NCBI GenBank assembly: GCA_029259875.1
Contig: JAJDEK010000358.1
Coordinates: forward strand, 1-10,045
Direction: 5' to 3'
Source: Planctomycetaceae bacterium
GTDB lineage: Bacteria; Planctomycetota; Planctomycetia; Planctomycetales; Planctomycetaceae
DNA: 10,045 bases
The position numbers and the translations under genes were made by a program. The notes beneath the pieces were generated by a model. It had not been told where the DNA came from and searched no databases. It saw only the letters and a list, made by a program, of their open reading frames with translations. Below, in pieces: positions 1,317-6,739 of the stretch (positions are counted from its first letter, which is position 1; every line of letters begins with the position of its first letter).

Positions 1317-1346
1317 TTGACAAAAAACCAATTTTTTTTGTATTAA
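1317..1346 (+). promoter_or_regulatory. Sigma70-type promoter for the TPR gene and possibly the flagellar cluster
   Basis: A perfect -35 hexamer TTGACA (1317-1322) is followed after 18 bases by TATTAA (1341-1346), a four-of-six match to TATAAT. The spacer contains a run of eight T (1332-1339). Transcription would start near 1353, leaving a leader of about 220 bases before the ATG at 1577. A second TTGACA at 1263-1268 has no good -10 partner. This is the only good promoter found upstream of the co-directional genes. The call is by eye from consensus. Confidence 0.55.
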
Positions 1347-4276: not shown

Positions 4277-4729
4277 ATGACCTTTCTACAAATGATCGAT
4301 TATCTCAAACTATTTTCGGTACGCTTGGAATATTCAAAGAGGCTGTTGAAGCTTTCGTTTCTACAGCAAGATTTGATTGACCAAAATGACTATACCGGCT
4401 TACTGGACGTGTTAGGGCAAAAGCAACGGTTGTTTGGACAGTTAGATCAATATACCAAACAACTGCCGATGCTCTGGGAAAAATGGAGAAGTGAGCGAGA
4501 TCTTTTGTTAGCAGATCAACGTGAGGTATGTGAACAAATCTTGCAGGAGTCTGAAGAAGTCCTTGCTAAGTTGTTAAAGAATGAAGACACAAGTACGCAG
4601 TGCATGGTAGATCGACGTGATCATACAAATCAGCAGATCCAGTCATTAAACCAGGGAGAAAAAGTCGGTGAAGCATATCGGGACAGTTTAGCTCCGGTCA
4701 CTCATCGTCATTTGAATATTGATCAATAA
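4277..4729 (+). CDS. Small helical protein resembling FlgN/FliT-type flagellar export chaperones
   Basis: Encodes 150 residues, close to the usual 110-150 of FlgN-family chaperones, which hold hook-associated proteins in the cytoplasm until export. The protein is almost all helix, with no signal peptide and no membrane segment. Residues about 28-63 carry the family-like pattern of leucines with Q, D and K (FLQQDLIDQNDYTGLLDVL, then QKQRLFGQL). A second long helix spans about 68-105. Near the end, NQGEKVGEAYR (125-135) resembles the G-x-x-A-Y segment often seen at the FlgN C-terminus. The match is by pattern and context, not strong identity, so no symbol is given. The gene lies 96 bases after the TPR gene and 57 before the regulator. 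No Shine-Dalgarno sequence is visible. The ATG at 4277 is chosen as the first start, and a second in-frame ATG at 4292 is possible. Other readings are a generic coiled-coil protein or another flagellar chaperone. Confidence 0.55.
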   Translation: MTFLQMIDYLKLFSVRLEYSKRLLKLSFLQQDLIDQNDYTGLLDVLGQKQRLFGQLDQYTKQLPMLWEKWRSERDLLLADQREVCEQILQESEEVLAKLLKNEDTSTQCMVDRRDHTNQQIQSLNQGEKVGEAYRDSLAPVTHRHLNIDQ

Positions 4730-4786: not shown

Positions 4787-6235
4787 ATGAATAAAAATCT
4801 AATACATAACTCCTCATCACGTGGTGTGATTCAGGTTGTTTCTCAGGACCGAATTCGTAGGCTGGAAGTATGCACTCAGTTTTCAAATTTAGGGTACACT
4901 GTGATTCCTCTGGCGGAAGTCGATCTTTCACAAACACCACCACGTTCGGTAGCGGATGTTTGTGTACTGCTTGATCAAAAGTCGATTTCGGAATTAACGT
5001 TCTCGGTTGATCTCGCTAAGAAACAGAGTTTGATTCCAGTACTGTATTATCCAGCATTAACTAATGATGCCCAAAAAGAGATCTTGAAATCCTCTCAAAC
5101 AACTTCACATGAATCGGTGGCCCCGTTTGCAGAATTGAGCCCTCAGGATTCCGTTGATAGTATCAGGCGTCTACTCGATTCTGCTGTAAAATATGCTCGC
5201 TTATCACAAGAATGTGCTGACTTGATTTCAGAATTAAATGAACGCTCAAGTCGCCGTCTGATTGGCTATAGCCAGGTAGTCCAAACGTTACGAGATCGCA
5301 TTGCAGATATTGTTCATCTGAAAAAATCCGTCTTAGTGCAGGGACCATCAGGTTCAGAGTTATCTCTAGTTGCTGAAATCATTCACGATTCAACGTTCAT
5401 TGATTCTCATCCATTCATCAAAGTGAATTGTAGTATCCTGACTACAGAGAATGTGGAAAGGGAACTGATTGGTTTTTATTCACATGAAGAAAGTTGTTAT
5501 TCGAACGAGCCTGTATGGAATCCTGGTTGCATTGAACAGGCAGAAGGCGGGACATTGATTCTCGATCAGGTGAATTTGGCTTCATTGCCTGTTCAGGCTG
5601 TTTTATTGAAGATTTTTGAGAAGGGGACATACCTGTCTCCAGAAGAAAAACAGCAAAAAAATGTCAATTGTCGAATCATTTCTACGAGCCATATTTCTCT
5701 CAAAGATTTGGTGTCGCAAAATCAATTTAAGAGAAAGCTGGCAGCGATTCTTGCAGTATCGACAATTTCCGTTCCCCGGTTGAATGATCGAAAAGAAGAT
5801 CTGGCGTTATTGACAGAGCATATCATTAATGAAGTCGCTAAGGCAGAGGGGACGGTTCCTAAACTATTAACATTGGATGGTTTGGAAATGTTGAAGAAAC
5901 ACGATTGGACTGGAGATATTCAGGAATTGCGTAATCTGATCCGACATGTGAATTTGGTTGATAGTGGACCCCGACTTGATGCCGCAAGTTTATTACCCTG
6001 GATTGGAACAGAGATGATATCAAACACAGATTCACTGGTGGGAATGACATTGCGGGAAATGGAGCAGAAGCTCATAGAAAGTACATTTGCCCGCTGCGGT
6101 GGAAATCGTGAAAATACAGCACAAATGCTGGATATTGGACTACGAACGCTTTCTGGTAAGTTGAGATCCTATGGATATCCGCCTCGCGGAGGCCCTGATT
6201 CCAAACGAAAATTTACGGTCAAACGAGCGGCTTAA
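4787..6235 (+). CDS. FleQ/NtrC-like regulator with a degenerate AAA+ domain and intact Fis-type HTH
   Basis: Encodes 482 residues in the order of a sigma54 enhancer-binding protein. Residues about 12-130 look like a degenerate receiver: the usual acidic pair is S19-Q20, while D63 could sit at the phospho-acceptor position. About 165-400 is the AAA+ domain, recognised by LVAEIIH, IEQAEGGTLILDQ, RKEDLALLTEHII and ELRNLI. About 425-463 is a Fis-type helix-turn-helix, GGNRENTAQMLDIGLRTLS (438-456) and on to G463, followed by a basic tail. The ATPase signature is lost: Walker A reads GPSGSELS (186-193, lysine replaced by L192), Walker B reads D260-Q261, nothing like GAFTGA remains at 233-238, the arginine-finger positions are K315 and I321, and the sensor II arginine is Q379. 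Known relatives without GAFTGA (TyrR, Rhodobacter NtrC) act without sigma54, and this protein probably does too, as a DNA-binding repressor, activator or scaffold. Its place directly before flgB suggests flagellar control. The frame is intact over 1.4 kb, so it is not a pseudogene. Confidence 0.85.
   Translation: MNKNLIHNSSSRGVIQVVSQDRIRRLEVCTQFSNLGYTVIPLAEVDLSQTPPRSVADVCVLLDQKSISELTFSVDLAKKQSLIPVLYYPALTNDAQKEILKSSQTTSHESVAPFAELSPQDSVDSIRRLLDSAVKYARLSQECADLISELNERSSRRLIGYSQVVQTLRDRIADIVHLKKSVLVQGPSGSELSLVAEIIHDSTFIDSHPFIKVNCSILTTENVERELIGFYSHEESCYSNEPVWNPGCIEQAEGGTLILDQVNLASLPVQAVLLKIFEKGTYLSPEEKQQKNVNCRIISTSHISLKDLVSQNQFKRKLAAILAVSTISVPRLNDRKEDLALLTEHIINEVAKAEGTVPKLLTLDGLEMLKKHDWTGDIQELRNLIRHVNLVDSGPRLDAASLLPWIGTEMISNTDSLVGMTLREMEQKLIESTFARCGGNRENTAQMLDIGLRTLSGKLRSYGYPPRGGPDSKRKFTVKRAA
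6178..6193 (+). other. Overlapping GC-rich hairpins near the regulator's 3' end
   Basis: Two mutually exclusive perfect 5-base stems overlap: TCCGC (6178-6182) / GCGGA (6186-6190) and GCCTC (6181-6185) / GAGGC (6189-6193), each with a 3-base loop. They lie in the codons for the tail after the HTH, about 80 bases before flgB. They may mark an RNA structure or processing site, or may simply reflect the codons for Pro-Pro-Arg-Gly-Gly. Confidence 0.3.
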
Positions 6236-6262
6236 CAGTCTGTGGTGTGTTAATCATTTTGT

Positions 6263-6269
6263 AGGGTGA
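6263..6269 (+). promoter_or_regulatory. Ribosome binding site that decides the flgB start
   Basis: AGGGTGA lies five bases before the ATG at 6275. A GTG at 6266 is in the same frame but sits inside this motif and has no site of its own, so the ATG is the better start. Confidence 0.7.
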
Positions 6270-6274
6270 ATTTT

Positions 6275-6739
6275 ATGATAGATCAAATTCTGAATTCGAA
6301 TTCATTGCCTTTGTTGGAAAAAATGGCGGCGTTCGCGGAACGCAGGCAGGAAGTTCTAGCAGGGAATATCGCAAATATTGACACTCCATCTTACAAAATG
6401 CGTGATTTACCTGTTAAAGATTTCCAGCAGGCATTACGTGAAGCTGTTCAATTGAAAGATAAACCATCAGGGCCTGTAGCTCAGCAATCCTTAGGGATGC
6501 CAGTTACATTAGGAAAAAATCAATCGATAGAATCTCAATTAGAAAATTTATTTCCTCAAAGTCTATTTGAAGCACAAGAAGCCTCTCCTCAGAATCTGAC
6601 ATTTCAAGACGCAAATAATCGGAGCATGGAGTCACAAGTCATGCGAATGACAAAAAACTCACTAATGCAACAGTTTGCTGTTGAGGTTATGATGGCGCAG
6701 ATGAATCAGTTAATGACGGTGATTTCTGAGCGTCCCTAG
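6275..6739 (+). CDS. flgB: Flagellar basal-body proximal rod protein FlgB
   Basis: Rod subunit placed in the periplasm between the MS ring/FliE and FlgC, and exported by the flagellar type III system, so it has no cleaved signal peptide. The N-terminus carries the rod-family signature: LPLLEKMAAFAERRQEVLAGN, then IANIDTPSYKMRDLPVKDF, equivalent to the NIAN-x-DTPGYK motif of FlgB. Near the C-terminus, the segment NLTFQDANNRSMESQVMRM corresponds to the DGNNVDLD region but has lost most of its acids. The terminal helix (LMQQFAVEVMMAQMNQLMTVI) would pair with the N-terminal helix in the rod. At 154 residues it is slightly longer than the usual 130-140, with the extra in the variable middle. The start is the ATG at 6275 because of AGGGTGA upstream; a GTG at 6266 would add three residues. 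It opens the run flgB-flgC-fliE-fliF-fliG, the order common to many bacteria. Confidence 0.95.
   Translation: MIDQILNSNSLPLLEKMAAFAERRQEVLAGNIANIDTPSYKMRDLPVKDFQQALREAVQLKDKPSGPVAQQSLGMPVTLGKNQSIESQLENLFPQSLFEAQEASPQNLTFQDANNRSMESQVMRMTKNSLMQQFAVEVMMAQMNQLMTVISERP

Follow-up and report, generated by a model that had tools for sequence, protein, structure and literature searches.

A putative sigma54-independent regulator derived from a flagellar two-component activator in a planctomycete family

Flagellar bacterial enhancer-binding proteins (bEBPs) such as FleQ and FlrC retain their sigma54 and ATPase machinery, and TyrR regulates aromatic amino-acid genes. According to PMC1173090, TyrR, which derives from PhhR in the gamma-proteobacteria, is a sigma54-type activator turned sigma70 regulator that lost the GAFTGA motif and controls a multi-gene regulon. 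PMC10274813 describes GAFTGA-less bEBPs as limited examples; it presents VpsR of Vibrio cholerae as a further precedent and states that the NtrC proteins of Rhodobacter capsulatus and Caulobacter, from which GAFTGA is deleted, act at sigma70 promoters. Both NtrCs are described as using a phosphorylated Asp and the partner NtrB, and R. capsulatus NtrC needs binding of ATP, not its hydrolysis (same source). Caulobacter NtrC is also a warning that loss of GAFTGA need not abolish all sigma54 effects (PMC12421884). For the Planctomycetia, PMC12316311 mentions sigma54 control of motility and retains only GAFTGA-bearing EBPs; a literature search over mostly titles and abstract starts, with most subscription papers outside reach, found no paper on a planctomycete pseudo-bEBP. 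Here, we analyzed a 10,045-nucleotide stretch of Planctomycetaceae DNA (contig JAJDEK010000358.1; the window), in which positions 4787 to 6235 of the forward strand encode, from an ATG start and in an intact frame, a 482-aa degenerate descendant of a flagellar sigma54 activator, hereafter the pseudo-bEBP. With a probability of roughly 0.6, we read it as a sigma54-independent, probably ATP-independent, TyrR-like regulator that arose from a dismantled flagellar two-component activator.

Replaced motifs and shifted constraint

The pseudo-bEBP retains the NtrC/FleQ fold but has substitutions in Walker A, Walker B, GAFTGA, the arginine fingers, sensor II, and the receiver. Pfam matches to Sigma54_activat (4.6e-28, residues 158-327), AAA_lid_14 (2.3e-12), and HTH_8 (3e-9) identify an AAA+ fold of the Sigma54_activat family and a Fis-type helix-turn-helix (HTH), and the predicted structure of the AAA+ part has block predicted local distance difference test (pLDDT) values mostly above 85 in residues 161-410. 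Direct reading of the residues on the forward strand located a degenerate Walker A, GPSGSELS (aa 186-193; 5342 to 5365), with K changed to L192 and G186 retained; a replaced GAFTGA (L1) loop (aa 229-245; 5471 to 5521) that reads GFYSHEESCYSNEPVWN; a degenerate Walker B, LILDQV (aa 257-262; 5555 to 5572), with E changed to Q261 and D260 retained; lost arginine fingers in FKRKLAAIL (aa 314-322; 5726 to 5752), now K315 and I321; and a lost sensor II arginine in WTGDIQ (aa 374-379; 5906 to 5923), now Q379. Sensor I has H302 in place of N, and receiver-residue counts mark aa 14-118 (4826 to 5140, forward strand) as a pseudo-receiver domain that lost the response-regulator acidic pocket, the Thr, and the Lys.

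The genome that contains the window (G000; 3.59 Mb in 589 contigs, 74% complete) is that of a Gimesia-like planctomycete, and close protein matches carry the names Gimesia aquarii, G. fumaroli, G. algae, and G. panareensis. Among the 17 Gimesia genomes searched, this one included, 15 encode a full-length pseudo-bEBP and G011 carries a fragment at a contig end; none was found in G006, a genome 76% complete. L192, Q261, and K315 each occur in 15/15 Gimesia proteins, which excludes chance and sequence error; position 321 is I or V in all 15, and Q379 is present in 14, with L in the remaining one. The original prediction that every hallmark of ATP hydrolysis and sigma54 contact is changed is thus right as to L192, Q261, K315, I321, and Q379, and the protein is by sequence not a sigma54 activator. 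It needs correction in that G186 and D260 are kept, that the GAFTGA loop is replaced in Gimesia and not deleted (it is shortened in other members of the family defined below), and that total loss is confined to Gimesia. An intact loop elsewhere in the protein would have spoken against the prediction, and no GAF[TS]xA motif was found anywhere in the sequences of the 120 homologues listed from 488 above threshold.

Constraint has shifted to the DNA-binding end, and the HTH alone is hyper-conserved. Among the 76 degenerate proteins surveyed below, mean pairwise identity is 22% in the N domain, 40% in AAA+, and 84% in the HTH (aa 421-470), compared with 58%, 68%, and 69% in 49 canonical ones. Median pairwise ratios of nonsynonymous to synonymous substitution rates (dN/dS) among the 15 Gimesia proteins are 0.18, 0.08, and 0.01 for the same three domains, from only 58-65 of 105 pairs, since synonymous sites are near saturation. 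The HTH with its tail spans aa 421-482 (6047 to 6232, forward strand) and contains RTLSGKLRSYGYPPRGGP. Conserved substitutions and constraint in all domains, together with the additional loss of kinase and sigma54 promoter described below, bear out the proposal of a repurposed DNA-binding scaffold with an intact frame.

Canonical orthologues, kinase, and sigma54 promoter

When 297 genomes of the class were surveyed with the HTH alignment, 129 yielded the protein at E ≤1e-12, and 130 loci (all 129 and one duplicate of the window) were examined. Five were set aside: L125, L137, and L144 are bEBPs with low HTH scores that flgB does not adjoin, L146 is truncated, and L017 is the duplicate. The remaining 125 comprise 76 loci without a GAFTGA-type motif, all in family f1, the grouping that includes the window's genome (here, the family), and 49 with GAFTGA, GAFTSA, or GAFTNA, every one outside it. 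All 49 canonical proteins retain the Walker A Lys, the Walker B Asp-Glu, both arginine fingers, and sensor II, and 48 have five of the five receiver residues (D, D, phospho-D, T, K), the remaining one being truncated; the 76 degenerate members have none to two of these five. Orthologues with a normal motif set, which the original prediction would have taken as a sign of local decay or sequence error, thus exist in other families, and we read them as ancestry, because all 76 clade members share the GAFTGA loss. Erosion within the family is uneven. Loss of every motif position together is the Gimesia state; among 61 non-Gimesia members, the Walker A Lys is retained in 8, R315 in 39, R321 in 3, and R379 in 49, and P0044 retains five of six motif positions without GAFTGA. 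The GAFTGA loss looks early, being universal in the degenerate clade, and Walker loss looks later and repeated. Among the canonical activators, those of family f5 (L108, L110-L114, L117, L118, L123, L126, L127, L148, L154, and L158) carry GAFTSA or GAFTNA with the other motifs intact, possibly as functional variants of the sigma54 loop.

The loci differ in the same sense as the proteins. FlgN and the activator flank a histidine kinase in 47/49 canonical loci, the other two loci stopping at a contig edge, while no linked histidine kinase was found in the 76 fetched degenerate loci, the kinases elsewhere in these genomes lying outside this search. Likewise, a sigma54 -24/-12 site scoring at least 14.0 of 17 occupies the activator-flgB gap in 46/48 canonical loci, and none occurs in that gap in 30 flgB-linked degenerate loci (best score, 13.0), a count that concerns this gap and not promoters elsewhere in the genome. 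The canonical exceptions, L150 and L160 of family f19, have very short gaps (54 and 36 bp), and flgC and fliE were not recognized downstream of them. Because the degenerate clade lacks both the kinase and the flgB sigma54 site that its canonical relatives have, the sigma54 flagellar activator appears to have been dismantled. The sigma54 gene itself is present in 88/88 family genomes (293/297 overall); therefore, the factor has not been lost, only one link to it.

A tree of the AAA+ part (143 distinct sequences, LG+G4) recovered the 76 degenerate proteins as monophyletic (UFBoot 100) and placed the degenerate and canonical proteins together, apart from 18 other bEBPs (UFBoot 100); support for the canonical group itself was only 41. 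Long branches call for caution with this tree, and synteny supports orthology independently. Among 80 loci fetched from records titled Phycisphaerae, another class, flgB or flgC adjoins the match in 28, and all 28 encode a GAFTxA motif. The canonical gene order is probably ancestral, since it is also present in these records.

In the window, the order is penicillin-binding transpeptidase, tetratricopeptide repeat (TPR) protein, FlgN-like protein, pseudo-bEBP, flgB, flgC, fliE, fliF, and fliG. The FlgN-like gene (4277 to 4729, forward strand; Pfam FlgN 4.4e-6, below its cut-off) abuts the pseudo-bEBP at the junction that holds the histidine kinase in canonical loci. The gap at 6236 to 6274 is devoid of a sigma54 promoter (best score, 10.0 of 17), and flgB follows at 6275 to 6739 on the forward strand, then flgC, fliE, fliF, and fliG. 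Upstream of the TPR-FlgN-pseudo-bEBP-flgB run lies a sigma70-type promoter-like element, TTGACA-N18-TATTAA (1317 to 1346, forward strand), kept in seven aligned Gimesia loci. Its counterpart upstream of the TPR gene scores at least 10 of 12 in 17/18 usable degenerate loci (L052 fails), with shuffle p ≤0.05 in 15/18, as opposed to scores of 9-11 in 19 canonical loci, with p ≤0.05 in 4; these counts leave out the short-locus artefacts L104, L019, and L023-L031, and the -10 pattern was fitted to degenerate loci. We rejected the element as a novelty of the clade; the similar, weaker one in canonical loci makes it probably ancestral. A 17-18-bp spacer with a GTATTAA/GTACAA-type -10 is common to many planctomycete TPR-flagellar operons and may represent a planctomycete housekeeping promoter. 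Two dyads were also discarded: GCTCATCATGAGC at the pseudo-bEBP start codon, seen in a few related genera and probably due to coding and kinship, and the palindrome TCAATATTGA, which covers the -35 box upstream of TPR and is perfect in some Gimesia but not in others. The longer TCAATATTGA pattern has 3-10 matches per genome (≤2 mismatches) at scattered places in four Gimesia, with 0-1 for the control.

Candidate operator and flagellar context

A candidate operator emerged from the canonical EBP-flgB gaps. Of 36 such gaps from approximately genus-level representatives, 27 contain CGGC-N7-GCCG, against at most 6 after shuffling, and 17 contain CGGCA-N5-TGCCG, against at most 3. We counted the full palindrome, TCGGCA-N5-TGCCGA, across the 297 genomes, with the pattern read backwards as a control. 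The 61 non-Gimesia degenerate genomes contain 369 sites versus 35 for the control, the 12 family genomes without the gene 17 versus 12, and the 50 canonical-gene genomes (the 49 and G225, in which a contig end truncates the gene) 90 versus 21. Mann-Whitney tests on these counts, uncorrected for phylogeny, separate degenerate genomes from gene-less relatives (p 3.6e-6) and from canonical ones (1.4e-11). At ten loci from four genera (g31, g36, g37, and g44), a perfect palindrome lies approximately 340-430 bp upstream of the stand-alone pseudo-bEBP gene.

Within Gimesia, TCGGCA-N5-TGCCG occupies six distinct places in G003, five of which recur at orthologous genes in G013 and G016 (sites fetched: 6/6, 8/12, and 6/12, respectively, A/T-rich spacers preferred); the sixth is inside coding sequence. 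One recurring site precedes a MotB-like gene (MotB_plug 9.2e-14, OmpA 8.7e-10), and others lie before a TPR lipoprotein-like gene, before a gene for a 228-aa exported-looking protein, and between divergent genes for 192-aa proteins; four of the Gimesia target genes could not be assigned to a family. In three Gimesia species (L207, L211, and L219), a well-conserved segment separates the palindrome from the TPR lipoprotein-like gene and could be a structured leader. A motB match occurred in 34 of 100 genomes, and 30 motB loci were fetched. The 5/5 Gimesia among them have the site 55-58 bp before the start codon, with conserved arms and a variable spacer, and the copies in G010 and the window's own genome each have a single mismatch; the site is missing in 11/11 genomes without the gene (G317 was left out of these counts). 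In G089, we read 20 regions around 20 of 46 listed matches and scanned 10 nearby proteins, a small, chosen, and uncontrolled sample: a TPR protein, a PPIase, and proteins of polysaccharide export, Mur ligase, penicillin-binding protein dimerisation domain, and MFS transporter type, a weak carboxypeptidase-regulatory match, and three proteins without a family. The candidate operators there lie near envelope-type genes, and no flagellar protein was among the 10.

A strict tie between gene and flagellum was rejected. The pseudo-bEBP was not detected in 12/88 family genomes at E 1e-12, and all 12 have a FliG_C match, which is weak in four (E 1e-11 to 1e-15). Seven of these gene-less genomes were fetched; six keep the TPR-FlgN-flgB-flgC-fliE-fliF-fliG order, with weak FlgN and TPR matches in L168 and L174, and neither a kinase nor an activator was found beside flgB-fliG in these six. 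In the seventh, L172, FliG alone was recognized. Conversely, flgB went unrecognized in the fetched stretch of 46/76 degenerate loci, some of which end at contig ends, and 10 gene-bearing family genomes have no FliG_C match at 1e-8, yet a local profile found FliF and FliG in one of them (L077). The suggestion of a flagellar master regulator is not supported by these observations or by the non-flagellar candidate targets in G089. A FliF-like gene directly follows the pseudo-bEBP in nine of the 46 loci (L049, L050, L056, L058, L063, L077, L092, L096, and L106), with flgB, flgC, and fliE not recognized nearby, which suggests a rearranged or divergent basal-body cluster.

Weighing of readings and closest precedent

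We envisage an ancestor with the order FlgN, histidine kinase, activator, sigma54 promoter, and flgB, which is intact elsewhere in the phylum. Comparison with such loci shows that the family has lost the kinase and the sigma54 promoter of flgB along with the GAFTGA loop and the receiver pocket, and that Walker A, Walker B, the arginine fingers, and sensor II have eroded to a genus-dependent degree. The flgB operon would now probably be driven by the sigma70-type element upstream of the TPR gene, and enrichment and co-occurrence suggest that the ancestral operator specificity was retained. As a dimeric or oligomeric DNA-binding regulator, the protein would need no sigma54 contact and probably no ATP hydrolysis to act on ordinary sigma70-type promoters of a larger, genus-specific gene set, most likely by TyrR-like occlusion; DNA binding, the regulatory sign, and the loss of ATPase activity are inferred.

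Several observations weigh against this reading. The operator is assigned to the pseudo-bEBP by association, and the enrichment tests ignore phylogeny. The 159 other genomes without the gene, three with set-aside bEBPs among them, contain 210 full palindromes versus 77 for the control, and the baseline ratio of site to control is therefore above 1 even without the gene. In the 15 Gimesia, the palindrome is sparse (18 versus 4) and has no occurrence in the window's genome, and the window holds no operator site above chance. One of the five recurring Gimesia sites is inside a signal-peptide coding stretch, and the motB site is missing in 12/13 non-Gimesia gene-bearing genomes, G307 having a one-mismatch match at -108. 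Degenerate gaps before flgB span 27-331 bp, many of approximately 50 bp, and therefore leave less room for a sigma54 match; sigma54-like matches upstream of the TPR gene (shuffle p ≤0.05 in 5/18 degenerate loci, at unshared positions, and 0/19 canonical ones) may reflect sigma54 control from further away. Finally, since R315 (39/61), R379 (49/61), and the Walker Lys (8/61) are retained outside Gimesia and P0044 keeps most ATPase positions, some members may still bind ATP.

It is possible, if doubtful, that the protein is no TyrR-like repressor but resembles VpsR or R. capsulatus NtrC and activates sigma70-type promoters independently of ATP. The Walker lysine expected to be necessary for ATP binding of the R. 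capsulatus NtrC type is missing in Gimesia, and a motB site 55-58 bp before the start codon makes a block at least as likely as activation. Improbably, the pseudo-bEBP could be a partner or poison subunit in hexamers of canonical bEBPs that tunes sigma54 transcription. The well-predicted AAA+ fold, the nine other strong Sigma54_activat matches in the window's genome, and the one arginine finger and sensor II kept in many non-Gimesia members fit such a role, as does Caulobacter NtrC, which can influence sigma54 flagellar genes despite lacking GAFTGA (PMC12421884); however, both finger positions and sensor II are lost in Gimesia, AAA+ constraint is far below that on the HTH, and no sigma54 site precedes flgB in 30/30 loci. 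That the gene is a non-functional remnant of a lost flagellar regulator on its way out is very improbable, for although 12/88 family genomes have no match and yet all carry FliG_C, purifying selection acts on every domain (HTH median dN/dS, 0.01) and the gene is retained in 76/88.

For the preferred reading, a TyrR-like regulator, the closest precedent by analogy is the passage from PhhR to TyrR. Like TyrR, the pseudo-bEBP has lost GAFTGA and kept a Fis-type HTH; the several targets proposed for it are candidate operators. It differs from TyrR in its flagellar origin and in the loss of receiver and kinase as well, and its candidate operator also differs from the TyrR box. VpsR, a c-di-GMP-binding regulator, was a fold-level match only, among the 50 matches listed, and the accessible portion of PMC10274813 does not describe for it the co-lost kinase and promoter that distinguish the pseudo-bEBP. 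Unlike the two NtrCs, the pseudo-bEBP has lost receiver, kinase, and, in Gimesia, the Walker lysine, and unlike FleQ and FlrC, it has not retained the sigma54 and ATPase machinery. The canonical planctomycete flagellar two-component activator (49 of loci L108-L160), an orthologue by synteny and tree, has intact motifs, kinase, and sigma54 promoter, and its HTH is less conserved.

Public records name the Gimesia members "sigma-54-dependent transcriptional regulator," an annotation that is very likely wrong. We consider it an even bet that, throughout the family, a sigma54 activator from a flagellar two-component system became a regulator of wider reach that works independently of nucleotide, with the HTH frozen by the genome-wide sites it gained and the depth of ATPase decay dependent on genus. 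The change can be assigned to a single clade, and the material for comparison comprises syntenic canonical orthologues, members with partial ATPase motifs, gene-less relatives, and a countable candidate operator. This set opens the transition from ATP-driven activator to ordinary regulator to direct tests, down to the sequence in which parts were lost and whether gained targets underlie the constraint on the HTH.
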